Assembly: GCA_001789205.1 (NCBI GenBank)
Contig: MFYT01000051.1
Coordinates: 1 to 64,000, forward strand
Length of the DNA stretch: 64,000 nt
Origin: Candidatus Raymondbacteria bacterium RIFOXYA2_FULL_49_16
Lineage (GTDB): Bacteria; Fibrobacterota; OXYB2-FULL-49-7; XYB2-FULL-49-35
Reading direction: 5' to 3'
In this document: piece after piece, positions 4,171-17,753 of the stretch
Numbering within the stretch: the first letter of the stretch is position 1
Layout of the letters: the number at the start of each line of letters is the position of its first letter
Made by a program: the position numbers and the translations under genes
The notes under the pieces: generated by a model
Database searches by the model: none
What the model saw: the letters and a program-made list of their open reading frames with translations, nothing else
What the model was told of the DNA's origin: nothing

Positions 4171-7100
4171 ATGAAAAAATATGCGGGCTATCTGTTTCTT
4201 TTCGCAATGCTTGCCGCACTCCCTATTTTTAGCCATGTTGAGGAGGGCACGGGAAATCTGCTGCAATTTTATAGTTATTATACAACCAACCCGCCGGTAA
4301 TCAACGGCTGTCTTACGGACGTAACCACGCCTGAAGGCACTCAAGGCGTACACCGGGACGCGGATGCGGATGAATGGAAGGACGCGTATGTACGCCATAT
4401 GCGCATGGTTTCGACAAATGGTCTGGATTCCATTGAAGCAACCTGGTTCTTCATGAATGACAGCCACTATTTGTATGTCGGATTCACGGGTAATTCTAAT
4501 AATGTTGGTAACAATCAGGACATTGATATTGTGTTTGACCAAGGCATTGGCGGCGGAGACCACAACGATGCGCTCGAAGGCGGCGGATCCGGCATTAATA
4601 ACGGTGAATTCAGGGTGAGATGCTCCCCGGACAAGGGAGCCACGCTGCTCAAGACTGAGTATTCCTTCAATGGCACCTCCTGGGTGCAGCAGAACAACGA
4701 CAACGAGGTCTTTGTCACCCTTGGCCACAATTTCGGTGTCTCCTTTAACCAAGTTGAATGGAAAATCCCCCTGGACACAGGTCTTACTGTTGATGATAAC
4801 CATAGTTATATGAATGTTGGCCCTTATGACGAACTGGGAATGAATTTGATATATACCACAACTTCCCAGGGTGAATTCCACTGGTCAGGAAGCAACAACA
4901 GCATGGTCGACCCGTCACAAGGCAATGGCTGGATCGACCTCAGATTGGGAGTAAAGCGTGATTATGTCACCTTTTACGCCACCTATGACGCGCATGGCAT
5001 TCCAACAGTTGACGGGAATATCACAGGCGGTACAACGCCCGATGACGGCTGGCGCGGGGCATATATGCGAAACCTGGTCCTTACCAATTTTGCGGGAAAA
5101 ACACTAAATGCCACCATATATTGCGTTGATGATGTGTCCGCGCAAGACCTCTTTGTGGGTCTGAAAATTTACGACGACCACAATGACAACACGGACAGCT
5201 GTGAAATTTACCAGGAACAGGACGATATATTGACAACAGGCAGGAATTTCCTTCTTGACAACAACCATGAAAATGCGCTTATCGCCAATACCACGGCCTA
5301 TGTCGCTTCCCGGGACCGCTATTGGAGCGGCGGCGCATCGGGTTCCTGGGCGCAGGACGCCTCGTCGGCAAACCAATCCGCCGCAGGAGCGTGGCGCACC
5401 ACAAACTATGAATACGAATTCAAGGTAAACCGAAGCCCGGCCACTGACGACATCATTATGGACAATAGTTCGCTCATGGGCTTCCATGTACGATATCACG
5501 ATGGTGAGGATGGAAGCGACTATTTCTGGGAACTCTCCCCAAACGCGGATAAAATACAGATCGACTGGAACAACAATATCTATGTTGCCACAGGTTGGCC
5601 CGACATGCAGCTTGGCGCGCCATATTTCCAGGTTATATATCCCGAGGACAATTCCACCATGGAGGGCGTGACCAATGTCAGGATTAGCGCCCAGAAGGAC
5701 CCGGCCACTCTCGACGACATCGACTCCGCCGTATTTTACCGCATAAGTGATCCTGATACGCGGCATCGCATAACAAAGATCGGTTCAACCAATGAATGGT
5801 CCGGCACATGGGATGTGACTGCTCTCCCGAACGGGGCTGATACGCTGGTATTCAAAGTGTACGATGACGCTCTTGTCATGGACCGTATCGTAAACGTTAC
5901 TATCAAGAATGATGCTTCCAGCGCCGCGACCCCTCCTACGGTGACACTCACGAGCCCTGCGGCCGGAAGCACGCTGGGCGGTGATTCGGCGGTAATAACC
6001 TTTTCCCGGACTGTGGCAGCCACGCACAGTATCGTATCGACCCATGTCAGCATCGACGGCGGCGCTTTCTCATCCATAGGCGCTGCGGCCACCAGCTATG
6101 CCTGGAACACCACGGCCCTGGCCGAAGGCAGCCATACCATTCAAATACGCGTGATTGATGATCAGGATGAATCGGCCACAACCAATGTGATCACGTATAT
6201 TGTCAAAAACACGCCAACGGTCTCCATTACATCCCCGCTTGATTCCACAGACCAGTCAGGACGGATCAGGGTCACCTGGGATGCAAGCCTGATAAGCGGC
6301 GATCCAGTCGATTCCTGCCAGATATCAGTTGATGCTATAAGCTGGTGCACAACCGTATCGGACAGCGCCGACAGCATCAATACCTCGGTTTATATGGATG
6401 GGCCTCACAGTATTCAAATCAGGGCATATTATTTCGGGAAAATCGGATATTCACTGCCCATTCATCTGCATTTCCAGAATTCGCCATCCATTACATTAAA
6501 TTCGCCACGAACTGATTCCATTATCAGCGGTACATTGGTTGTCCAATTCACCGCAGCAGCAGTAGCGCCTGCGACTGTTGATTCAACCTGGATAGCGGTT
6601 GATGGCGGCGCATGGGTGGCTACTGCAACAGGAACAACTGATACGCTCGATACGCAGGACCTGACTGACGGTGATCATATCATACAGCTCAAGGTAATGG
6701 ATTCAAACAACAAGACAGGCCTTTCGCAGACCATCAAAGTAGTGGTGCGCAATACGCCATCCATTACACTGAATTCACCGCGAGCTGATTCCATTATCAG
6801 CGGTACACTAGTTGTTCAATTCACCGCAGTAGCAGTTGCACCTGCAACTATTGATTCAACCTGGATAGCGGTTGATGGCGGCGCATGGGTGGCTACTGCA
6901 ACAGGAACAACTGATACGCTCGATACGCAGGACCTGACTGACGGTGACCACACAATACAGCTCAAGGTCAGTGACTCAAACAACAAGACAGGCCTTTCGC
7001 AGACCATTAAAGTAGTGGTACGCAATGCGCCATCCATTACACTGAATTCACCGCGAGCTGATTCCATTATCAGCGGTACACTAGTTGTCCAGTTCACCGC

Positions 7101-9504
7101 AGCAGCAGTTGCGCCTGCAACTGTTGATTCAACCTGGATAGCGGTTGATGGCGGCGCATGGGTGGCTACTGCAACAGGAACAACTGATACGCTCGATACG
7201 CAGGGTCTGACTGATGGTGACCACACAATACAGCTCAAGGTCAGTGACTCAAACAATAAGACAGGCCTTTCGCAGACCATTAAAGTAGTGGTACGCAATG
7301 CGCCGTCAATTACACTGAATTCACCGCGAGCTGATTCCATTATCAGTGGTACACTAGTTGTTCAATTCACCGCAGTAGCAGTTGCGCCTGCGACTATTGA
7401 TTCAACCTGGATAGCGGTTGATGGCGGCGCATGGGTGGCTACTGCAACAGGAACAACTGATACGCTCGATACACAAAACCTGACCGAGGGTGCCCACATC
7501 ATACAGCTCAAGGTCATGGATATCAATGGCAAAACATCTCTCTCAACAGCGATCAGGATCACCATTGCGAACATTCCCCAGGTGGTCCTCTCACACCCCA
7601 GCGCTGGTGACTTGTTGTCGGGTGTTGACACAGTCAGGTTTACCATTACACCAGTGCTTCCCGCGCTCCTTGATTCCACCTGGGTGGCAATTGACGGGGG
7701 CTCATGGCAACGCGCACTGTCGGAAAGTACCTTTGTACTCGTAACAGTGGACCTCCTTGACGGATCGCACTTATTGCAGGTGAAAGCCAGGGACATAAAC
7801 GGCAAAACAGGGTATTCTTCAACAATAAGTTTCATGACAAAAAATAATCCTACGATCAGTTTCAGGGAACCGCTGCCAGGCCAATCGATCAATGGTATTG
7901 TTACTGTCCGGTTCACAGCGCTTCCGGTGCTTCCCGCTGATATTGATTCGGTCCTCATTTCCATAGATGGCGGCGCATTCGCGGCAACCACGACCGAAAG
8001 CACCTATGTTTGGAACACAGCCACAGTCTCGGACGGCGAACATATCCTGAAACTCCACGTGGTAGATACCAGAAGTAAAATAGGGGAATCTGAAATACTC
8101 CTGGTAAAAGTCGACAATACACCGCCAGTCATCTCTTCGGCAAACCTGAATTACGGCGGCAACAAGGCTGTGACCGACAATGGAACACTCCTTTTCTCAG
8201 CCATGGTGTTTGACCAGACATGCGCGGTCTCACCCGCAAGCGTCTGTCTGAGCGTCCCTGGTCTGGGACTCGACTCCATGGCCTTGTACGACAATGGGGG
8301 CAATGGCGACACTATTGCAGGCGACCATATCTTTTCACGCTCGCTCTTGGTGTCGGGCGGCGCGAGCGGCCTGCTGGCATATCAGATATTCGCGGCGGAT
8401 TTGCTGGGAAACGACACAGTGATCTGCGATTCATTCTTCTACGACAACACGGTTCCCTATCTTTCCGTGTCGATTTCGCCGCGCGCCCAGGATGGACCCG
8501 ACAGCCTCCATGGAATAAGTTATTTCAACAGGATCATTCTCAAGGGTATATACGGCGACCTGCATAGCGGGGTAAAAGCCGCGTGGATCTCCATCACCGA
8601 TTCAATCGTACATGGCAACCTCCTCTACAATTCACCCATACTGCTCACTGCCGCTGATGCCGCGTGCAACAAGGTGATTGAACTGGTCGAAGGAGCAAAC
8701 ATCATTACCCTGTCTGTTATCGACTGGGCTGGAAACCAAACCGACAGCGTGGTGGAGCTGACATATATTCCGCCCAAAGTTTCGGCAACAGTTGGTACTG
8801 ACGGCGGTACGGTGACAAATCCCAATGGTACAATTATCACGGTGCCTGCCAATGCACTTTTCCAGCCCACAACCATCAGTATTACACGGGTGAGTACTGC
8901 GGCGCTTCCAGCTTCCGAAAACCTTTCTATTGCCCTGCTGTCCAATGCGTATGATTTCCTTCCCGAGGGGCTGGTTTTCAAGAAGGAGGCGACCATTTCG
9001 CTGGCCTATACGCACGCGGAACTGGACGCTGACATGGATGGCGTGCAAGATATCCCTGAGAACAACCTCACCATCTATTTTCTCGACAATGATGAGTGGG
9101 TGTCCGCGGGCACGGCAACAATAGACACTGGCGCGAACATTGTTTCAGTTGCTGTGAACCATTTTACTCTGTTCGCCATAGGTACAGTGGCGGCTGCGCC
9201 AAACAAGGTCAAAAGCTACTGGTCGCGCAACCCGCTCCCTGCTAATATCCAATCGACTTTTGTGTACGAGCTGCCGGCAAAAAGCAGGGTTGGCCTCCAG
9301 GTCTATGACCTTGCCGGCGACCTGGTACGCATCCTTATTCCCGGGAACACGGAAAAACCCGCTGGTGCGCACGCAATACGGTGGGACGGGACTAATGGGC
9401 GCAATACATTCGCGGGCACTGGTCTCTATATCTATGTCTTCTCCGTTGACACGGGAAACGGTAAGACCACAGTTAAAAAACCCATTGCCATAGTGAACAG
9501 GTAA
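4171..9504 (+). CDS. giant secreted Ig-repeat protein with CBM9-like domains and FlgD-Ig C-terminus
   Basis: This 1777-residue exported protein begins with a signal peptide (KKYAGYLFLFAMLAALPIFS). Two N-terminal modules (about 25-250 and 270-480) resemble family-9 carbohydrate-binding/DOMON folds, each opening with an 'I/V-D-G' strand and a DEW- or DGW-type segment. From about residue 500 to 1390 there are tandem Ig/cadherin-like domains of about 90 residues, marked by the recurring pattern 'SPxxxxxxxGxxxVxF' and 'DGGxW'. Four consecutive copies are nearly identical (see the repeat feature). The last about 95 residues form a FlgD-Ig/T9SS-like sorting domain (LQVYDLAGDLVR, WDGTNGRN, GLYIYVF). 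A PorV-like gene follows 11 bp downstream with a strong GGAGG. I infer a cell-surface or secreted glycan-binding or adhesion protein. No catalytic domain was recognised. Confidence 0.85.
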   Translation: MKKYAGYLFLFAMLAALPIFSHVEEGTGNLLQFYSYYTTNPPVINGCLTDVTTPEGTQGVHRDADADEWKDAYVRHMRMVSTNGLDSIEATWFFMNDSHYLYVGFTGNSNNVGNNQDIDIVFDQGIGGGDHNDALEGGGSGINNGEFRVRCSPDKGATLLKTEYSFNGTSWVQQNNDNEVFVTLGHNFGVSFNQVEWKIPLDTGLTVDDNHSYMNVGPYDELGMNLIYTTTSQGEFHWSGSNNSMVDPSQGNGWIDLRLGVKRDYVTFYATYDAHGIPTVDGNITGGTTPDDGWRGAYMRNLVLTNFAGKTLNATIYCVDDVSAQDLFVGLKIYDDHNDNTDSCEIYQEQDDILTTGRNFLLDNNHENALIANTTAYVASRDRYWSGGASGSWAQDASSANQSAAGAWRTTNYEYEFKVNRSPATDDIIMDNSSLMGFHVRYHDGEDGSDYFWELSPNADKIQIDWNNNIYVATGWPDMQLGAPYFQVIYPEDNSTMEGVTNVRISAQKDPATLDDIDSAVFYRISDPDTRHRITKIGSTNEWSGTWDVTALPNGADTLVFKVYDDALVMDRIVNVTIKNDASSAATPPTVTLTSPAAGSTLGGDSAVITFSRTVAATHSIVSTHVSIDGGAFSSIGAAATSYAWNTTALAEGSHTIQIRVIDDQDESATTNVITYIVKNTPTVSITSPLDSTDQSGRIRVTWDASLISGDPVDSCQISVDAISWCTTVSDSADSINTSVYMDGPHSIQIRAYYFGKIGYSLPIHLHFQNSPSITLNSPRTDSIISGTLVVQFTAAAVAPATVDSTWIAVDGGAWVATATGTTDTLDTQDLTDGDHIIQLKVMDSNNKTGLSQTIKVVVRNTPSITLNSPRADSIISGTLVVQFTAVAVAPATIDSTWIAVDGGAWVATATGTTDTLDTQDLTDGDHTIQLKVSDSNNKTGLSQTIKVVVRNAPSITLNSPRADSIISGTLVVQFTAAAVAPATVDSTWIAVDGGAWVATATGTTDTLDTQGLTDGDHTIQLKVSDSNNKTGLSQTIKVVVRNAPSITLNSPRADSIISGTLVVQFTAVAVAPATIDSTWIAVDGGAWVATATGTTDTLDTQNLTEGAHIIQLKVMDINGKTSLSTAIRITIANIPQVVLSHPSAGDLLSGVDTVRFTITPVLPALLDSTWVAIDGGSWQRALSESTFVLVTVDLLDGSHLLQVKARDINGKTGYSSTISFMTKNNPTISFREPLPGQSINGIVTVRFTALPVLPADIDSVLISIDGGAFAATTTESTYVWNTATVSDGEHILKLHVVDTRSKIGESEILLVKVDNTPPVISSANLNYGGNKAVTDNGTLLFSAMVFDQTCAVSPASVCLSVPGLGLDSMALYDNGGNGDTIAGDHIFSRSLLVSGGASGLLAYQIFAADLLGNDTVICDSFFYDNTVPYLSVSISPRAQDGPDSLHGISYFNRIILKGIYGDLHSGVKAAWISITDSIVHGNLLYNSPILLTAADAACNKVIELVEGANIITLSVIDWAGNQTDSVVELTYIPPKVSATVGTDGGTVTNPNGTIITVPANALFQPTTISITRVSTAALPASENLSIALLSNAYDFLPEGLVFKKEATISLAYTHAELDADMDGVQDIPENNLTIYFLDNDEWVSAGTATIDTGANIVSVAVNHFTLFAIGTVAAAPNKVKSYWSRNPLPANIQSTFVYELPAKSRVGLQVYDLAGDLVRILIPGNTEKPAGAHAIRWDGTNGRNTFAGTGLYIYVFSVDTGNGKTTVKKPIAIVNR
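6484..7575 (+). repeat. four tandem 273-bp (91-codon) repeats inside the secreted protein
   Basis: Unit starts are at 6484, 6757, 7030 and 7303, exactly 273 bp apart. The units are nearly identical at DNA as well as protein level; differences are scattered single bases such as the alternation of AVAVAPATI and AAAVAPATV. The last unit diverges at its 3' end. The flanking Ig domains are only distantly related, so this is a recent in-frame expansion within an older repeat array. Copy number could be collapsed or expanded by assembly. Confidence 0.9.
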
Positions 9505-9515
9505 AGGAGGATGCC

Positions 9516-10481
9516 ATGAAAACTACTCTCTGCTCCATGATACTAGTCCTTGTCAGCGTCTTTTCCGGGTACGGCAAACCCCTTGACCTGGCCCTGGGCG
9601 CACGGCCCCAAGGCATGGGCTCGGCCTTCATTGCCATAGCGGATGACGCCAATGCCTCGTACTGGAACCCCGCGGCAATGGCCCTGGTTTCCCGCCTTGA
9701 ATTCTCGGTCAGTAACCTGCTGAACCAGGAATTCCTGGGCGTCAACGTCAACATACTCAACGGCATTGTCCCATTGCCGGGTCTGGGTACCCTGGGCTTC
9801 AGCTGGCAAATGGTGAACGCTGGCCTTGAGGAGGGGGATCCTGACAATGAACTCGATTTTCGTGAAGACCATTGGCAGGAACATGTCTTCTCGCTCTCCA
9901 TTGCCCGGAAATTATGGGACAAGCTGCTGGTTTTTCGCAATACAAGCATGGGCATCACCCTTGACCGGTACATGTACAGCACGGACTTCTATGACGGTGC
10001 AGGCCTTGGCTTTGACCTCAGCGTTTTCACGCTCCTGCCCTACGACATCCGGTTCGGACTCATGGCCCGTTCCCTTGCCGCGGAAATGGAAGGCGAAATG
10101 TTCGACCCGGAATTCAGGGCCGGACTGGGGTACGAGCTCACGATAAAAGAAATAAACCGGCTGGTCTTTGCCTCAGACATTGCCCTGAAGAAAAACATAG
10201 AGTACGCGAACACCCCGGAGCTTGAATTCAGGAACATGAACTTCAAAGTCTTCGAAGGCGTGGAATACTCTTTTCTGAAGATCAAGGACTTCACTCCTGC
10301 GCTCAGGCTTGGGACCAACCTCACGCCCCTGAACGACCGGGGTGGCATATGGGCCTATGCGTGCGGCGGTATTGGCGCGACCTACAAAAACTATCGCATT
10401 GATTATGCCTTTATCTACAATTCAAAACCAGAGTTGGGACTTGGAACCCGCCATCATGTTGCCATAAGCTTTTTCCGCTAA
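9516..10481 (+). CDS. PorV/PorQ-like outer-membrane beta-barrel protein
   Basis: This 321-residue protein has a signal peptide and then the family hallmark GARPQGMGSAFIAIADDANA followed by YWNPAAM. That hallmark is typical of the PorV/PorQ/UPF0164 group of FadL-like outer-membrane barrels. The rest is alternating beta-strands, and the C-terminus ends in HHVAISFFR with the terminal aromatic expected of a barrel. In type IX secretion, PorV is a shuttle that receives cargo carrying C-terminal sorting domains. Its position 11 bp behind a giant protein with such a domain suggests a dedicated partner. The start has AAAGGAGG seven bases upstream, and the transcript ends at a strong terminator. Confidence 0.85.
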   Translation: MKTTLCSMILVLVSVFSGYGKPLDLALGARPQGMGSAFIAIADDANASYWNPAAMALVSRLEFSVSNLLNQEFLGVNVNILNGIVPLPGLGTLGFSWQMVNAGLEEGDPDNELDFREDHWQEHVFSLSIARKLWDKLLVFRNTSMGITLDRYMYSTDFYDGAGLGFDLSVFTLLPYDIRFGLMARSLAAEMEGEMFDPEFRAGLGYELTIKEINRLVFASDIALKKNIEYANTPELEFRNMNFKVFEGVEYSFLKIKDFTPALRLGTNLTPLNDRGGIWAYACGGIGATYKNYRIDYAFIYNSKPELGLGTRHHVAISFFR

Positions 10482-10484
10482 AGT

Positions 10485-10525
10485 AAAAAAAGACGGGCAG
10501 TCTTTACCTGTCCGTCTTTTTTTTT
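10485..10525 (+). terminator. rho-independent terminator
   Basis: The stem AAAGACGGGCAG / CTGTCCGTCTTT has a short loop (TCTTTAC) and is followed by a run of about nine T. It begins a few bases after the stop codon of the PorV-like gene, so it separates that operon from the opine-dehydrogenase cluster. Confidence 0.9.
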
Positions 10526-10563: not shown

Positions 10564-10605
10564 TCCGGTTTCTGGCATGTCCCCTGCCTATCAATTCCGG
10601 TTTCT
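10564..10605 (+). promoter_or_regulatory. paired 10-bp direct repeats upstream of the opine/mutase cluster
   Basis: TCCGGTTTCT occurs at 10564-10573 and again at 10596-10605, 32 bp apart, which is about three helical turns. The pair lies between the preceding terminator and the first gene of the cluster, where an activator or repressor would bind. No cobalamin riboswitch elements were recognised here despite the B12 enzyme downstream. Confidence 0.45.
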
Positions 10606-10627
10606 TTAATAAAAAAGGTTGGTACGT

Positions 10628-11725
10628 ATGAGCAAGGAAAAACCTGTTTTTTGTGTTATTGGCGCAGGCCACGGCGGCATGGCCATGGCGGCTCACCTTT
10701 CAATCCTCGGATTTGAGGTACGGCTCTTCAACCGGACCTCCGAACGACTCAAGCCCATCCAGATACGGCGCGGCATTGACGTAACTGGCGAAATAACCGG
10801 ATTTGCCCGAATCGAAACCGCCACAGACAACCCCGAGGAGGCACTTTCCGGCGCAGACGTGGTCATGATCGCGATTCCCGCTACCGGTCACCGGTCAATC
10901 GCCGCAATCACTGCACCCTTTCTGAAAAGCGACCAGTACGTTGTCCTGAACCCCGGCAGGACCTTTGGGGCCATTGAATTTCATCAGGTATTAAAAAGCA
11001 AAGACGCAAATACTGACGTCACCATTGCCGAAACCCAGACCTTTCTCTACGCGAGCAGAGTGACCGGGCCTGGCCAGGTGAAAATATTCAGAATAAAAAA
11101 TTCCGTGCCCCTTGCCACTTTTCAGGCCCACCGTATCCCTGGCTGTCTCGATGTGGTACGCAAGGCCTATCCGCAATTCGTGCCCGGAGACAATATATTT
11201 AAAACAAGCTTTAACAACATCGGCGCTATTTTTCATCCAGCACTGGTACTGCTGAATGCCGGATGGATAGAAGACCAATCTGACTTTGAGTTTTATTTCC
11301 AGGGTGCATCGCCTTCGGTCTCAAAAATACTGGATAAATTGGACGCCGAACGGGTAGCAGTCGCGGCCGCACTGGGTATCCAGGCCATGACCGCGCGAGA
11401 CTGGCTCTACTTTGCGTACGGCGCGGCCGGAAAAACCCTGCGCGAATCAATGCGCGCCAACTCCGGCTACCACGGCATCCTTGCCCCGCACCAGACTGAA
11501 ATGCGATATGTGACCGAAGACATCCCCTGTAGTATTGTTCCCATGAGTTCGCTCGGAAGACAGATGAACATACCAACACCAGTCATGGACTCTATCATTA
11601 CCCTTGCCTCTGCCATGCACGGACGCGACTACTATGCCGAAGGCCGGACAATGGAAAAAATGGGCATCGATAAAATGGACCTCAAGCAACTGCGCCTTTT
11701 AGGCATCGGTGAAATGCAGGGATAA
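10628..11725 (+). CDS. NAD(P)-dependent opine (octopine/nopaline-type) dehydrogenase
   Basis: This 365-residue protein has an N-terminal Rossmann fold with the nucleotide-binding loop GAGHGG at residues 12-17. Its C-terminal domain matches the octopine/opine dehydrogenase family: FHPALVLLNAG carries the catalytic His region, and FYFQGASPSVSKILDKLDAE is followed by RVAVAAALG. Such enzymes reductively join an alpha-keto acid to the amino group of an amino acid, giving an N-carboxyalkyl amino acid; related enzymes make opine metallophores. I prefer the ATG at 10628 over an in-frame TTG at 10619. It is the first gene of a three-gene cluster with a B12-dependent mutase (10 bp downstream) and an AsnB-like enzyme. 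No nicotianamine-synthase-like gene is present, so a staphylopine-type pathway is not directly supported. Confidence 0.85.
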   Translation: MSKEKPVFCVIGAGHGGMAMAAHLSILGFEVRLFNRTSERLKPIQIRRGIDVTGEITGFARIETATDNPEEALSGADVVMIAIPATGHRSIAAITAPFLKSDQYVVLNPGRTFGAIEFHQVLKSKDANTDVTIAETQTFLYASRVTGPGQVKIFRIKNSVPLATFQAHRIPGCLDVVRKAYPQFVPGDNIFKTSFNNIGAIFHPALVLLNAGWIEDQSDFEFYFQGASPSVSKILDKLDAERVAVAAALGIQAMTARDWLYFAYGAAGKTLRESMRANSGYHGILAPHQTEMRYVTEDIPCSIVPMSSLGRQMNIPTPVMDSIITLASAMHGRDYYAEGRTMEKMGIDKMDLKQLRLLGIGEMQG

Positions 11726-11734
11726 TCCAACACC

Positions 11735-13588
11735 ATGCGTTCAGACGAAGTTTTTGGTTTCCTGAGACCAGCCATTGACGCCCATACCCTGGGCCTCAGT
11801 ATGGCAGTACAACTGCTGCACGACTGCAATTATACGCCCCTGGTGGCAAACGCGGCTGTGTGCGAGGCCGCAAACGAACCCGCGCAGGCAAACAACAGCG
11901 CCCTCATTGCCCAATGGATTACGGAAACACGCATTACCCGTCTTGGATTCAGCTACCGACTCGATCCGGTCCAGGCCGCGGCCCTATTTGGAAAACTGAT
12001 GTACCAGATCAAGTCCCATCGTCTTTTAGCCGAGGATGGCGGAAAAATAACGCACCTCTATTTCGCGGGCCTGCCTGAGGCCTGCGCGCGTGTACACAGA
12101 GAACAGGGAGACCGTGTCATCCTCTTTATAGGTGACGAGACCCCTGGAGAGACTCTTGAAAAACTGGGTATTCCCCCCGCAGTACGGCCAGCACACATGA
12201 CCGGCGAAATCGAATACGATACCATGCGCATTGCCTTTGCCCGGGACCTTCTGAAGCAGGGAAAGCACCTTGAGATAAAACCCGTGGACCGCTCCGGCTG
12301 CAAAGATCTTGGTTCCCCGCACGAACATCTTGCCGGCCGGCTCGAACAGAGCATGCGGTCCAGACAACTGCCCCTGATGCGTGCGCACGTTGGCCCCTAT
12401 CTTCCAAACCGCGACGAGGCAGTCCGCCTTTTTCTCGAGTGGTCGTCCCAGCTTGCCAAGGCAGGATTCCTCGACGTGCTTTCAATTGGCACATCGCAGC
12501 TTTCTCAGTCCGCGTTTGGCGAACCATGGGAAGGCAAACAGAACGGCGGCGGGGTGCCCGTCAATTCCGCGGACGAGTTCCGCGCAATCTGGCGCGCCGC
12601 GCGACCTATGCTGGTCCGTACCTATGCGGGTACAAAAAATATTCCAGCGCTGGCGCGCATGTACGAGGAAACAATCAACTGCGCCTGGCATGCGCTCTCG
12701 TTCTGGTGGTTCTGCGCCATTGACAACAGAGGCAGCAACAGCGTTGCCGATAATATCACGGAACACTTTGAAACCATCAAAGTGATTGCCGCGGCCGGAA
12801 AACCTTTTGAAGCAAATGTGCCTCATCATTTCTCGTTCCGCGGGGCCGATGACTGTACCTACGTGGCCGCGGGCGTAGTAGCAGCGCGCGTTGCAAAATC
12901 CCTGGGTATACGGCACTACGTGCTGCAAATTATGCTCAATACACCCAAATACACCTGGGGAATCCAGGACCTTGCCAAAGCGCGCGCACTGCTCTACCTG
13001 GTGCGCAGGCTCGAAGACAAAAATTTCACGGTCATTCTTCAGCCGCGCGCAGGCCTTGACTATTTTTCTCCTGATCTGGAAAAGGCAAAGGTGCAGCTTG
13101 CCGCGGTAACCGCGCTCATGGACGATATTGAACCACGCAATACCCAAAGCCCTGCCATGGTCCATGTTGTCAGCTATTCAGAAGCAGCCCATCTGGCAAC
13201 CCCCGCGGTGGTCAACGAGAGCATTAAAATAACCCGGGCAGCGCTCAATGCCTACCGGACCCTCAAAGCGCAGGGTAAAGCCATGGACATGGCCTCGCAC
13301 GCTGAAACAGCCGCACGCACCCAGGAATTGATCGCCGACGCCTCTGCACTCCTGGCAGCCATTGAAAAAGCGGTTCCCGCGCCCTATTCGCCCCAGGGGT
13401 TATACGATATGTTTGCCACGGGATTTTTTCCCGTGCCCTATCTCTGGGAGTGCAAGGAGGAGTTTGCCAGGGCAATCGCATGGCCAACCCGGGTTGTACA
13501 CGGCAGCGTGAAGTGCGTTGACGACACCGGCAAACCGCTCCCTGTTCAGGAGCGCATTGAACAAACCCTCGCATGGAGGAAAAAGTAG
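11735..13588 (+). CDS. fused B12-dependent glutamate-mutase-like enzyme
   Basis: This 617-residue protein looks like a fusion of the two glutamate mutase subunits. Residues 1-130 form a B12-binding Rossmann domain with the base-off motif DAHTLG (D15, H17, G20), a Ser in GFSYRLD (S73) and AG at 111-112 in place of the usual GG. Residues about 190-617 resemble the MutE (epsilon) TIM barrel: GGGVPVNS, EANVPHHF, ATPAVVNESIKITRAAL and a C-terminal PVPYLWECK region. The combined length equals MutS (about 137) plus MutE (about 480). Glutamate mutase interconverts glutamate and 3-methylaspartate by a radical rearrangement; the real substrate here is not known. The neighbours are opine dehydrogenase and AsnB-like amidotransferase, not the mutL/methylaspartase genes of glutamate fermentation, which points to biosynthesis. 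Confidence 0.75.
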   Translation: MRSDEVFGFLRPAIDAHTLGLSMAVQLLHDCNYTPLVANAAVCEAANEPAQANNSALIAQWITETRITRLGFSYRLDPVQAAALFGKLMYQIKSHRLLAEDGGKITHLYFAGLPEACARVHREQGDRVILFIGDETPGETLEKLGIPPAVRPAHMTGEIEYDTMRIAFARDLLKQGKHLEIKPVDRSGCKDLGSPHEHLAGRLEQSMRSRQLPLMRAHVGPYLPNRDEAVRLFLEWSSQLAKAGFLDVLSIGTSQLSQSAFGEPWEGKQNGGGVPVNSADEFRAIWRAARPMLVRTYAGTKNIPALARMYEETINCAWHALSFWWFCAIDNRGSNSVADNITEHFETIKVIAAAGKPFEANVPHHFSFRGADDCTYVAAGVVAARVAKSLGIRHYVLQIMLNTPKYTWGIQDLAKARALLYLVRRLEDKNFTVILQPRAGLDYFSPDLEKAKVQLAAVTALMDDIEPRNTQSPAMVHVVSYSEAAHLATPAVVNESIKITRAALNAYRTLKAQGKAMDMASHAETAARTQELIADASALLAAIEKAVPAPYSPQGLYDMFATGFFPVPYLWECKEEFARAIAWPTRVVHGSVKCVDDTGKPLPVQERIEQTLAWRKK

Positions 13589-13589
13589 A

Positions 13590-15068
13590 ATGTGCGGCAT
13601 AGCGGGAATCATGAAACAAGGCTGTAGCGCAACAGTCAGCGCCATGGTCGACAGCATGGGCCACCGGGGTCCTGACGCCAGAGGTATCTGTGACACCACA
13701 ACAAGCACTTTGGGCCATACACGACTCTCCATTATCGACGTGGCAGGCGGGGCGCAACCAATGGCCGATCCTGTTAATCAGAGCTGTATCGCATTTAACG
13801 GCGAAATCTACAATTTCCCAAAACTGCGGGACGATTTGGGCGCGGAAACATTCACCACGCACAGCGACACAGAGGTCATTCTCAGACTCTTCAGGAACCA
13901 TGGGATTAATCATGTGAGAAACCTTGACGGAATGTTTGCCTATGCCATCGTGAAAGACACTGAAGTCATGCTCAGCCGCGATCCTCTGGGCATAAAGCCT
14001 CTCTATACGGGCATGCATAAGGACGCACTCGTCTTTGCATCGGAGATCAAGGCGCTTCTTCCTCTGTGCGACCGTATTGAGGAATTTCCCGCTGGCCACA
14101 CCTACTCGTCCGCAAAGGGCTGGGAATGCTATTATCATCTTGATGCAAAGGAAGAGACCGTGCGCGACGCAGAGATCGCTGCGGCCGGCATCCGTACTCT
14201 GCTCGAAACAGCCGTGCGCAAACGTCTCCTTGCCGATGTGCCGGTGGGCGTGTTTTTAAGCGGCGGTCTCGACAGCAGTCTCATATCAGCGCTGGCGCGG
14301 CTGCACAAAGACCCGCTCGATTCTTTTTCCGTGGGAACGGAAAAAAGTCCGGACAGAATGTTTGCTTTGCATGTGGCACATTTCCTGGGCACCCGGCACC
14401 ACGAATACATCTATACCATTGACGAGGCCGTCACGGCACTTCCCGAGGTCATCTACCATCTCGAATCGTTTGACTGCTCCCTGGTGCGCAGCGCAATACC
14501 CAATTTCTTCCTCGCGCGCCTTGCCAGCGACCATGTTAAAGTGGCGCTGTCCGGTGAAGGCGCGGACGAACTTTTTTGCGGATACGACTATCTCAAGACC
14601 CTGGACCGCGCGCACCTTCAAACCGAACTCCTCAACATAACCCGGGCGCTCCACAACACCAACCTGCAGCGGTGCGACCGCATGAGCATGGCGCACAGTC
14701 TGGAAGTACGCGTCCCCTTCCTCGACACGGCCATGGTCGATTTTGCGTTTCGCATACCCGTGAACCTTAAATTACCGCTGCCTGCGAACACTGAAAAATG
14801 GATTTTACGTAAGGCCGGAGAAGGTCTGCTGCCCAAAAAGATTGTCTGGAGAAAGAAAATAAAATTTGCCACCGGCGCAGGCCTCGAGGACGCTCTGGCT
14901 CACCACGCTGAAACGCTCATTACCGACAGCGATTTCAGCAGGGAACGGAATGTCGGTGAAGGTATTGTGCTGCGGTCGAAAGAAGAGCTTTTATACTACC
15001 GCATTTTTTGCGAACGTTTTCCCGCGCAAAAGTTCTCCCACCTGATAGGCCGGAGCAGAAGCGTATAA
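13590..15068 (+). CDS. asparagine-synthetase-B-like glutamine amidotransferase
   Basis: This 492-residue two-domain enzyme has an N-terminal class II glutaminase beginning MCGIAG, so Cys2 becomes the N-terminal nucleophile. The segments HRGPD, LGHTRLSI and FNGEIYN are intact. The C-terminal ATP-pyrophosphatase domain has SGGLDSS at 224-230 and SGEGADELFCGY. The start at 13590 is fixed by Cys2 and by GGAGGA nine bases upstream, overriding a longer in-frame reading. It lies one base after the mutase stop, so the two are translationally linked. AsnB adenylates a side-chain carboxylate (aspartate in the classic case) and amidates it with glutamine-derived ammonia. Next to a mutase that may make a methylaspartate-like acid, the true substrate may not be aspartate. 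At about 490 residues it is shorter than E. coli AsnB (about 550). Confidence 0.88.
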   Translation: MCGIAGIMKQGCSATVSAMVDSMGHRGPDARGICDTTTSTLGHTRLSIIDVAGGAQPMADPVNQSCIAFNGEIYNFPKLRDDLGAETFTTHSDTEVILRLFRNHGINHVRNLDGMFAYAIVKDTEVMLSRDPLGIKPLYTGMHKDALVFASEIKALLPLCDRIEEFPAGHTYSSAKGWECYYHLDAKEETVRDAEIAAAGIRTLLETAVRKRLLADVPVGVFLSGGLDSSLISALARLHKDPLDSFSVGTEKSPDRMFALHVAHFLGTRHHEYIYTIDEAVTALPEVIYHLESFDCSLVRSAIPNFFLARLASDHVKVALSGEGADELFCGYDYLKTLDRAHLQTELLNITRALHNTNLQRCDRMSMAHSLEVRVPFLDTAMVDFAFRIPVNLKLPLPANTEKWILRKAGEGLLPKKIVWRKKIKFATGAGLEDALAHHAETLITDSDFSRERNVGEGIVLRSKEELLYYRIFCERFPAQKFSHLIGRSRSV

Positions 15069-15083
15069 CCTGTGAAACCCTGT

Positions 15084-17753
15084 CTACATTCCTGAAATAA
15101 TATCGCGGATACATTCGGCAACCACGTCAGGGTCTGAATTGGCCGGAATCGTGTGGTGCGCCTGAAGTGAACCCACTGATACGGGAGCGCCGAATGAGAC
15201 CGAGGCGTGGGCCGATCCGTTGCCAAAGACCTTCAATTTCCCTCCGGAAGGCCAGATCTCAAATCCGCCGCGCACCCGGACAGGAACAACAGACACGCCT
15301 GTTTCGAGCATTATTTTTCCTATACCCGACCTGAATTTGCCCAGTCTGCCCGTGCGCGTGCGCGTGCCTTCGGGAAAAATGACCAGATTATAACCCTGGT
15401 TGATGATTGATGCGGCTGTCTGCAGAACGCCGCTGATCTCCCCCTCCCGCTCAACAGCAATGAGGTTCGACCGGTTCAGGAACGGGCTGAGCAAGGGGCT
15501 GCTGAGAAGCTCGATTTTTCCCAGGGTAAAGGTCCGCCTGCGGATAGCCCAGGGCAGCAGGGAAAGTATCCAGAAAATATCGAGGTAGCTCTCATGGTTT
15601 GCGCAGAAGAGAAATGGGCCTTTCTGATCAAGATGCTCCATGCCCTTTGGCGTCAGTCCCCAAAATGTCCGGGAGAACGCCTTGCAGCAGGACGGAAGCG
15701 CGTGGAAAAGCAGGCTTGAATTCTCACGTACAACAAGCGGTGGCTGCGGCTGAATTTCAGCACCAGGAACCTGCGGCGCATGGGGCGCGTTTTTTGTTTC
15801 CCTGAGAAAAACCGCAAGATCGCCCAGTGTCTCAATGCGCAGGGCCGCGCTTTCGGGCACGGAACAACGCAGGACCTGTTCAATGCGCGAAAAGAGATCG
15901 AGGCGTTTGAGGGAATCGAGTCCAAGATCGAGTTCAAGGTTTGAACGGGGACCAATCGCCTGGTTTTGTGCTTCAGGGGAAAGTTGTTCAACAAGCTCCT
16001 GTGCCTGCCGGTACTCGGCCGTGGCCACAAGCTCGATTTCGCTCACGGTAAGGCGTACTTCGGGCACTGCATGGCCCGGTGTTTTCCTGGCCGCCTCGAA
16101 CATGGCGCGTAATTCAGGTTTTTTTAATTTCCTGGTGGTGGTGCGCGGCAATGGTTGGAAAACCACGATGAAATGGTTGATCTTCTTGTAGCTGGGCAGC
16201 TGGCGGCCCAGCGTCACAATCTCCTGCCGCACAATCTCCTCGGCATCGGTTACTGTTGAGCGTTTCCTGATCTCTTTGGAAGGAAGAATGACCGCGCACA
16301 CAACCTCGCTTTGGTTCTGGTGCACGCCAAAAACGCCCATGTCCTCAATAAGCGGTGAGGCAAGAAAATATTCTTCAATTTCGTCGGGGTAGACGTTTTT
16401 TCCTGAATCAAGGACAATCAGGTCTTTGCTGCGGCCGCATAAATAGAGAGAACCATCGCTGGTCACCCGTCCCAGATCGCCCGTATGAAACCAGCCATTC
16501 TCATCAAAAACCTTTTTTGTTTCGGTCTCATTGTTATAATACCCCGGAAAAACCGTGTTGCCTTTAAAAAGCACTTCACCCACGCCCGAGGCATCGGGTT
16601 TGTCAATCGTCATTTCATTGCCGTCGAGCACTGTTCCCACTGATGCCTGCTTCGCGTTTTCATAGGGGCACAGGGTAATGGGACCAAAGGTCTCGGTAAG
16701 TCCATATCCTTCAACAATAGTGAAACCCAGACGCCTGAATCCGTAGAAATAGCGCTTTTTGAGCGATGACCCGCCTGAGATGATCAGGTTGAGTTTGCCG
16801 CCAAAACCCTGGTGAACGGTCCCAAAGAGCTTGCGCCTGAACCTGATTCCCAGCACAGGTCCTAAAAGCGTTGAAACAAGGTGCAGAATGGAAAATACCA
16901 TGCGCACGACCAGGCCCTTTGCCCTGACCGTGCGTTCAATATTATCGAAAAAGAGTTCGAGCATTTGCGGCACAGCCGGAAGAATGGTGACCCCTTTGTC
17001 CTTGAGACCTTCGACAATGAGTGGCCCTTTTAGCACTGGCACAAAAACAACCGCTACGCCCGCAGTGAGCGCGGCAGCCACACACGCGGCAAAACCAAAA
17101 ACATGGTGCAGGGGAAGCACGGCCATCATGACATCGGCCGATGTGACGCGCATACGCGGCACACCGCACAGGGGAACTGCGGTAAAATTCTTCTGGACCA
17201 GCACTACTCCCTTTGCCTTACCCGTGGTCCCGGAGGTAAAAATAATGGCGACCGGATCGTCAGGCGCGAACTGCCGCGAAAAAGCATTGTCTCGGGCATC
17301 GCCGTCACTGATAAATTCGCCAAACGTCGCCGCATTGGTATCCGCATCAAATGATACGATCTTCTGTATTGAGGAAAAACGTGTCTTGAGATCGTTGAAC
17401 AGTTTCAGATAGGTGCGCGAACAGAAAACCACTCGTGGTTCGGTGAGTCGCACAATCTCCTCAATCTCAGCCGGAGGGATATTGGGGTCGATGGGGACCG
17501 TGCACCCGCCGGCAAGCGCAATGGAGAGGTGGGCAATGACCCATTCGGGAGAATTTTCACCAATGACAACGCCCTGTATGCCGCGCCTGAATCCCATGCG
17601 CTTCAGGATCGAAACGCACCGGTTGAAGTCAGCATGAAACTCTCCGTATGTCCATGACTGGTATGCGCCGTTGCGTTTTATGTGCAGACAGGGGCGATCA
17701 CGATGCTGTGTGACCGATTCATGCAAATGGTCAAAAAAAACAAGGGGATTCAT
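15084..17753 (-). CDS. acyl-activating enzyme / acyl carrier / PlsC acyltransferase fusion
   Basis: This 889-residue protein has three modules. Residues 1-550 form an AMP-binding acyl-CoA/ACP synthetase with FTSGTTGKAKG (about 172-182), GYGLTETFGP, WFHTGDLG and GKNVYPDEIEE, and the C-terminal lysine region TTRKLKKPEL. Residues about 600-665 are an acyl-carrier-type domain with the phosphopantetheine site LGLDSLKRLD. Residues about 690-889 form a PlsC-type acyltransferase with NHESYLD and FPEGTRTRTG. An enzyme that loads a fatty acid onto its own carrier and passes it to a lysophospholipid or another acceptor is a natural reading, similar in logic to Aas. It converges on the AsnB-like gene with a 15-bp gap, so it belongs to the leftward unit rather than the opine cluster. 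No predicted membrane anchor stands out. Confidence 0.85.
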   Translation of the reverse strand: MNPLVFFDHLHESVTQHRDRPCLHIKRNGAYQSWTYGEFHADFNRCVSILKRMGFRRGIQGVVIGENSPEWVIAHLSIALAGGCTVPIDPNIPPAEIEEIVRLTEPRVVFCSRTYLKLFNDLKTRFSSIQKIVSFDADTNAATFGEFISDGDARDNAFSRQFAPDDPVAIIFTSGTTGKAKGVVLVQKNFTAVPLCGVPRMRVTSADVMMAVLPLHHVFGFAACVAAALTAGVAVVFVPVLKGPLIVEGLKDKGVTILPAVPQMLELFFDNIERTVRAKGLVVRMVFSILHLVSTLLGPVLGIRFRRKLFGTVHQGFGGKLNLIISGGSSLKKRYFYGFRRLGFTIVEGYGLTETFGPITLCPYENAKQASVGTVLDGNEMTIDKPDASGVGEVLFKGNTVFPGYYNNETETKKVFDENGWFHTGDLGRVTSDGSLYLCGRSKDLIVLDSGKNVYPDEIEEYFLASPLIEDMGVFGVHQNQSEVVCAVILPSKEIRKRSTVTDAEEIVRQEIVTLGRQLPSYKKINHFIVVFQPLPRTTTRKLKKPELRAMFEAARKTPGHAVPEVRLTVSEIELVATAEYRQAQELVEQLSPEAQNQAIGPRSNLELDLGLDSLKRLDLFSRIEQVLRCSVPESAALRIETLGDLAVFLRETKNAPHAPQVPGAEIQPQPPLVVRENSSLLFHALPSCCKAFSRTFWGLTPKGMEHLDQKGPFLFCANHESYLDIFWILSLLPWAIRRRTFTLGKIELLSSPLLSPFLNRSNLIAVEREGEISGVLQTAASIINQGYNLVIFPEGTRTRTGRLGKFRSGIGKIMLETGVSVVPVRVRGGFEIWPSGGKLKVFGNGSAHASVSFGAPVSVGSLQAHHTIPANSDPDVVAECIRDIISGM

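Follow-up and report, generated by a model that had tools for sequence, protein, structure and literature searches.

Two neighbouring genes, one for an opine dehydrogenase (ODH) and one for a glutamate-mutase-like B12 enzyme (MUT), form a conserved pair, and this pair is the unit rather than the three-gene set in which it was noticed. In 29 of the 29 judgeable loci ODH adjoins MUT and shares its strand (with one gene between them in L102); 30 MUT loci were examined and L036 was not counted, as its contig ends at MUT. We put at an even chance the proposal that an undescribed pathway to a rearranged N-carboxyalkyl amino acid has ODH and MUT as its two core enzymes, with some genomes adding an amide-forming step. 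The initial annotation had expected three families to travel together, the third being an AsnB-like amidotransferase. That expectation holds for ODH and MUT, which co-occur in distant genomes, and fails for AsnB, which was found in only 3 of the 30 loci.

Organisation of the gene cluster

The analysed window is a stretch of 64,000 nucleotides of Candidatus Raymondbacteria bacterium RIFOXYA2_FULL_49_16 (contig MFYT01000051.1). The plus-strand genes ODH, MUT and AsnB-like are packed in 10564-15068 with gaps of 9 nt and 1 nt, and the first description of three tightly spaced genes on one strand behind a terminator was confirmed with its positions. The features are given below.

10485..10523, plus strand: intrinsic terminator of the upstream gene (9516-10481), found by inverted-repeat search, with a T run
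10564-10573 and 10596-10605, no strand assigned: two copies of TCCGGTTTCT, 32 nt apart, found by repeat search
10628..11725, plus strand: ODH, opine (octopine/CENDH-type) dehydrogenase, 365 aa; alternative start TTG at 10619
11735..13588, plus strand: MUT, B12-binding domain and glutamate-mutase-E-like TIM barrel in a single chain, 617 aa
11777..11794, plus strand: cobalamin-binding motif of MUT, from the alignment of 22 members
12362..13204, plus strand: barrel part of MUT (residues 210-490), eight strands by DSSP of the model, and alignment
13590..15068, plus strand: AsnB-like amidotransferase, ATG at 13590, 492 aa, with Cys1 and the glutaminase residues intact

The terminator has 16-nt arms which are 94% complementary and a 7-nt loop, and because of it the cluster is isolated from the upstream gene. 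The direct repeats that had been described along with it are present, but they were rejected as a meaningful element because ten 10-mer pairs at such a spacing occur in the window, and the TCCGGTTTCT pair is judged to be due to chance. On the 3′ side the cluster is bounded by a convergent gene (15084-17753), whose product is an AMP-binding ligase fused to an acyltransferase (PF00501 and PF01553). Elsewhere in the window, at 4171-9504, a surface-type protein of 1777 aa contains several nearly identical tandem copies of a repeat of about 90 aa (SITLNSPRADSIISGTLVVQFTA...). Rfam gave no hit above its gathering threshold anywhere in the window, and so no cobalamin riboswitch ahead of the cluster. 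The GC content of ODH, MUT and AsnB is within the range of the window, so the composition gives no sign of recent transfer.

The opine dehydrogenase

ODH was matched by PF02317 (E 2.8e-47) and by the Arthrobacter CENDH 1BG6 (E 2e-75), and the identity first proposed for it was thereby confirmed. In the alignment with 3C7A, its His203, Arg293 and Asp298 fall on His212, Arg324 and Asp329 of octopine dehydrogenase, where Asp329 is presumably the aspartate of the His-Asp dyad. From this sequence evidence ODH can be assigned as an opine dehydrogenase having a Rossmann domain, an octopine-dehydrogenase helical domain, the His/Asp dyad and the arginine; in octopine dehydrogenase itself the dyad is accompanied by Arg324 as a sensor (PMC2924402). 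The likeness to known opine dehydrogenases is a homology over the whole length with the catalytic His, Arg and Asp retained, whereas the ODH of these loci differs in having a B12 mutase as its constant partner. Two Planctomycetota loci (L002:2515-4083 and L039:6940-8598) have an ODH with a PTS EIIA-2 domain fused to its N-terminus (PF00359, E 1.5e-17 in L039), which ties opine synthesis to phosphotransfer regulation in an unusual way.

The mutase family

The MUT protein of the window taken alone had no match in Pfam, NCBIfam, PHROGs or the PDB sequences. Among 22 family members scanned, the B12-binding domain PF02310 was found in 20 (best E 7.7e-13), and PF06368 (methylaspartate mutase E chain) was matched by one (E 9.8e-5). 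The cobalamin-binding motif reads D15-A-H17-T-L-G20 in the window protein, and His17 and Gly20 are invariant in 22 of 22 members of the family alignment; the cobalamin-binding residues on which the initial annotation had made its reading depend are thus retained. There are two subfamilies, a long one of about 620 aa with the motif DAHTLG and a short one of about 550 aa with CVHVAG, and the Asp of D-x-H-x-x-G is present in the long one only. The family is discrete, because in the profile search the full-length members score at least 574 bits and the next matches at most 35 bits, with none between.

An AlphaFold2 model of MUT built on five sequences (pLDDT 80, pTM 0.83) has an N-terminal alpha/beta domain followed by an eight-strand barrel. 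The best Foldseek matches of this model in the PDB are glutamate mutase subunit E (1cb7_B, E 9.3e-10; 6h9e_B, E 8e-9), and the next fold is four orders weaker (E 2.4e-4). The comparison of the MUT family with ten real GlmE by hhalign gave E 1.2e-5 over 358 columns with a probability of 81%. A PLP/B12 aminomutase of the OraE or KamE kind was also considered and rejected, as its matches were weak (best E about 1e-3) and did not come first among the fold matches. In its fold and domains MUT is therefore predicted to be a single-chain, glutamate-mutase-like B12 enzyme, and the label of a fused enzyme of this kind was right to that extent, on the family profiles and the model. It would presumably use adenosylcobalamin for a radical rearrangement.

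In the ODH tree the window, L052, L039 and L002 form one clade (98/87), yet L052 has a short MUT and the other three have a long MUT; a second mismatch of this type is seen in L049. The long and short MUT may therefore do the same job and be interchangeable with one ODH lineage, as suggested by these two breaks in the match between ODH clade and MUT type.

The pocket compared with glutamate mutase

Glutamate mutase (GlmS/GlmE, PF02310 and PF06368) shares with MUT the B12-binding domain and the TIM barrel and is its best structural match. It differs in having a separate sigma subunit, where MUT unites both parts in one chain that begins with the B12 domain, and in having mutL or methylaspartase nearby, where none is seen beside MUT. 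The glycyl part of the glutamate mutase substrate is bound by R66, R149 and E171, of which E171 takes the free amine, and the acrylate part by R100 and Y177 (PMC10947579). The R100 column is an invariant Gln258 in the MUT family, and no Arg occurs in residues 247-262 of any of the 22 members. E171 aligns with Ser/Pro322 in strand 4, where the alignment is loose, and the invariant D330 could take over its role. Opposite R66 and R149 the alignment has H218 and Y297, and the invariant R216 and R295 stand two residues earlier on the same strands. Since these equivalences come from sequence profiles with a probability of 81% and strands 1 and 3 may be off by two, the equivalents of R66 and R149 may persist as R216 and R295 with a two-residue shift. 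The invariant residues of MUT are R216, Q255, Q258, R295, Y297, D330, R332, E359, H364, R369, R438, H477 and E483; the arginines on strands 1 and 3, and E483, which is aligned with E330, are points of likeness to glutamate mutase.

The glutamate-binding Arg and Glu residues, which had been proposed as a check, were accordingly found in part: two arginines are possibly kept, and Arg100 and Glu171 are replaced in the alignment by Gln and Ser/Pro. Judged by these residues MUT does not look like a glutamate mutase, the arginine claw being incomplete and R100 changed to Gln. The arginine-rich, altered pocket fits, without proving, an N-substituted amino acid as substrate, because the glutamate that holds the amine aligns with Ser/Pro.

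The genome of the window also has a true GlmE (730.7 bits to PF06368) on contig C1, behind a mutL-like gene. On this contig (G000; L056:5404-8404) the mutL-like gene and then glmE lie at the contig end, apart from MUT. The absence of the fermentation genes methylaspartase and mutL, as stated in the initial annotation, is correct within the window and does not extend to the whole genome. The conversion of glutamate to 3-methylaspartate by MUT, which had been suggested, is unlikely, because Arg100 and probably also Glu171 are not kept and the genome already holds a real glutamate mutase.

Pairing and distribution

ODH and MUT overlap or lie at most 30 nt apart in 26 of the 29 loci, and the overlaps of 1-4 nt in many loci are a sign of translational coupling. 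The order of the two genes is reversed in six loci (L046, L049, L053, L100, L103 and L104). The L004 row of the gene-order table is an artefact caused by an open frame that extends across the gene upstream.

A pattern scan of GTDB contigs found relatives of MUT in Planctomycetota, Krumholzibacteriota and two Bacillota records, with 47-57% identity, and with the phylum of the window the carriers belong to at least four phyla. By profile search a full-length MUT is present in 22 of 391 genomes of the class of L003, 3 of 294 Planctomycetota genomes, 3 of 80 genomes of the phylum of L004 and 1 of 168 genomes of the phylum of the window; as the 1739 genomes searched (a count that includes repeats) were chosen around known carriers, these are not global frequencies. 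Draft or metagenome assemblies make up most of the genomes. Many of the Bacillota loci are closely related, and counts of loci are not counts of independent events. The wide and patchy spread over taxa suggests that the pair may have been spread by horizontal transfer.

Amide-forming partners and other neighbours

The third gene of the window scores 553.7 bits to NCBIfam PRK09431, above the cut-off of 499, which bears out its naming as AsnB-like, and it matches E. coli AsnB with E 2e-88 and the beta-lactam synthetase 1JGT with E 5e-24. The three loci with such a gene are the window, L052, which has ODH-MUT-AsnB in the order of the window, and L002, which has AsnB-ODH-MUT with an ATGA overlap shared by AsnB and ODH. 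In L002 and L052 Cys1 is gone, together with the block holding R49, N74 and D98 of E. coli AsnB, all of which we take to be glutaminase residues, whereas the window AsnB keeps all of them; from these losses the AsnB of L002 and L052 is not expected to draw ammonia from glutamine. In the synthetase domain the window AsnB is 41-45% identical to L002 and L052, against 36-38% to AsnB of E. coli and of the phylum, and the tree support for grouping the three is moderate.

Other loci have other partners. A D-Ala-D-Ala-ligase-like (Ddl-like) ATP-grasp occurs in five (L003, L041, L042, L044 and L047), the gene between ODH and MUT in L102 is an ATP-grasp, and an F420-ligase-like protein is near the pair in L049. 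AsnB is thus one among several alternative amide-forming partners of the pair, and about two thirds of the loci have neither a ligase nor AsnB beside it. An alanine racemase follows MUT in L039, and a lactate-type MFS gene follows it in L048, L050 and L101; in L050 a protein of 102 aa without a Pfam match lies between the two (4674-4982). In L052:2800-6965 (G660) the genes after ODH-MUT-AsnB are formiminotransferase, cyclodeaminase and an imidazolonepropionase-like amidohydrolase, which are histidine-to-glutamate genes. In L102:5454-14327 ODH, the ATP-grasp and MUT are inside a capsule-type cluster with a flippase, glycosyltransferases and a UDP-GlcNAc epimerase-like gene, which suggests glycan decoration in that genome.

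Comparison with known systems

Beta-lactam synthetase and CarA are AsnB homologues without a working glutaminase, as are the proteins of L002 and L052, and beta-lactam synthetase acts on N2-(2-carboxyethyl)arginine (PMC6097109). The window AsnB differs from them, as it keeps the glutaminase and is nearer to E. coli AsnB than to 1JGT. The staphylopine genes CntKLM are likewise a small biosynthetic cluster with an opine dehydrogenase, and one ODH-MUT locus also has an amino-acid racemase; there, however, the partner is the nicotianamine-synthase-like CntL, where ODH has a B12 mutase. No nicotianamine-synthase-like (CntL-like) gene and no metal importer or other metal transport gene was seen among the listed neighbours of the pair, and the earlier idea of an opine-like metallophore or signal finds no specific support in these neighbour lists. 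Pyrrolysine biosynthesis employs the radical SAM enzyme PylB, the ATP-dependent PylC and PylD (PMC8225853). This combination of a mutase, an ATP-dependent amide ligase and a dehydrogenase resembles the present one in logic and not in ancestry: PylB is a radical SAM and not a B12 enzyme, and ODH belongs to the octopine dehydrogenase family.

Proposed pathway and alternative explanations

The activity of opine dehydrogenases and the radical chemistry of B12 mutases are established for the respective families, and because the pairing is fixed we infer that ODH and MUT are coupled on one substrate. ODH would join an alpha-keto acid and an amino acid reductively into an N-(1-carboxyalkyl) amino acid (opine), and MUT with adenosylcobalamin would carry out a radical 1,2-rearrangement of a carbon skeleton, its substrate being more likely an N-substituted amino acid than free glutamate. 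Some genomes would go on to amidate a carboxylate by means of an ATP- or GTP-dependent enzyme, which is AsnB-like in the window and Ddl-like or of another kind elsewhere. The product would be a specialised metabolite, such as a cell-envelope building block, a compatible solute or a signal, rather than an energy substrate. ODH may precede MUT or follow it, or may run backwards as an oxidising enzyme. In the literature search no paper turned up in which an opine dehydrogenase and glutamate mutase are both named, and a paper on metagenomic opine dehydrogenases does not mention gene context; the earlier supposition that the pathway is undescribed is likely to be right.

The place of the window AsnB bears on how far this pathway extends. 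It may be an ordinary asparagine synthetase standing here by chance, only ODH and MUT belonging together, which is compatible with the pair as the unit and which we consider unlikely though worth serious weight: the protein passes the NCBIfam cut-off for asparagine synthase B with its glutaminase residues kept, but AsnB-like genes also accompany the pair in L002 and L052, where they are its closest relatives found by synthetase domain and have a dead glutaminase, and a full-length AsnB of this type is missing from the majority of genomes in the phylum. The order of the two core steps could be the opposite one, with MUT acting first on a free amino acid, in a mode other than that of glutamate mutase, and ODH then N-carboxyalkylating the branched product into the same product class. 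The invariant R216 and R295 could still grip an alpha-carboxylate like the upper claw R66/R149, and staphylopine-type pathways employ the opine dehydrogenase last (PMC7438024); against this, the change at Arg100 and the probable change at Glu171 make it unlikely that a free dicarboxylic amino acid is bound in the style of glutamate mutase, and we regard MUT acting first as rather unlikely.

As to the role, the product may serve as an osmolyte, or as an amino-acid group attached to a glycan by an amide bond, which would be compatible with the chemistry proposed for the pair. N-(1-carboxyethyl) amino acids do decorate bacterial glycans and the pair of L102 lies within a glycosyltransferase and flippase cluster, but glycan genes are not beside the pair in the window or in most loci, and we hold this role to be unlikely. 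A catabolic route appears quite unlikely; in it MUT would rearrange what ODH yields on oxidising an opine or a secondary amine, and the two would feed an anaerobic fermentation like that of glutamate or ornithine. Many MUT carriers are Bacillota and the lactate-type MFS gene is beside MUT in three loci, yet no ammonia-lyase, thiolase or CoA gene is regularly beside the pair, ATP-consuming ligases accompany it in a third of the loci, and the genome of the window already possesses a glutamate mutase that could serve such a route. A bolder form of the biosynthetic proposal, in our view improbable, is that MUT is a new adenosylcobalamin mutase rearranging opines themselves, from N-(1-carboxyalkyl) to N-(2-carboxyalkyl) or a carbon-branched isomer, and that the AsnB relatives of L002 and L052 with their dead glutaminase could close a lactam in the manner of beta-lactam synthetase. 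If true, this would be a reaction class new for coenzyme B12 and would open a new way of making cyclic or amidated opines.

Significance

To our knowledge few adenosylcobalamin-dependent carbon-skeleton mutases are known, and each of them defines a distinct reaction. MUT forms a family that is discrete and unannotated, and its partner enzyme, which does not change from phylum to phylum, narrows its substrate to something that an opine dehydrogenase makes or uses. The ODH-MUT pair could reveal a new class of small molecules in anaerobic communities.
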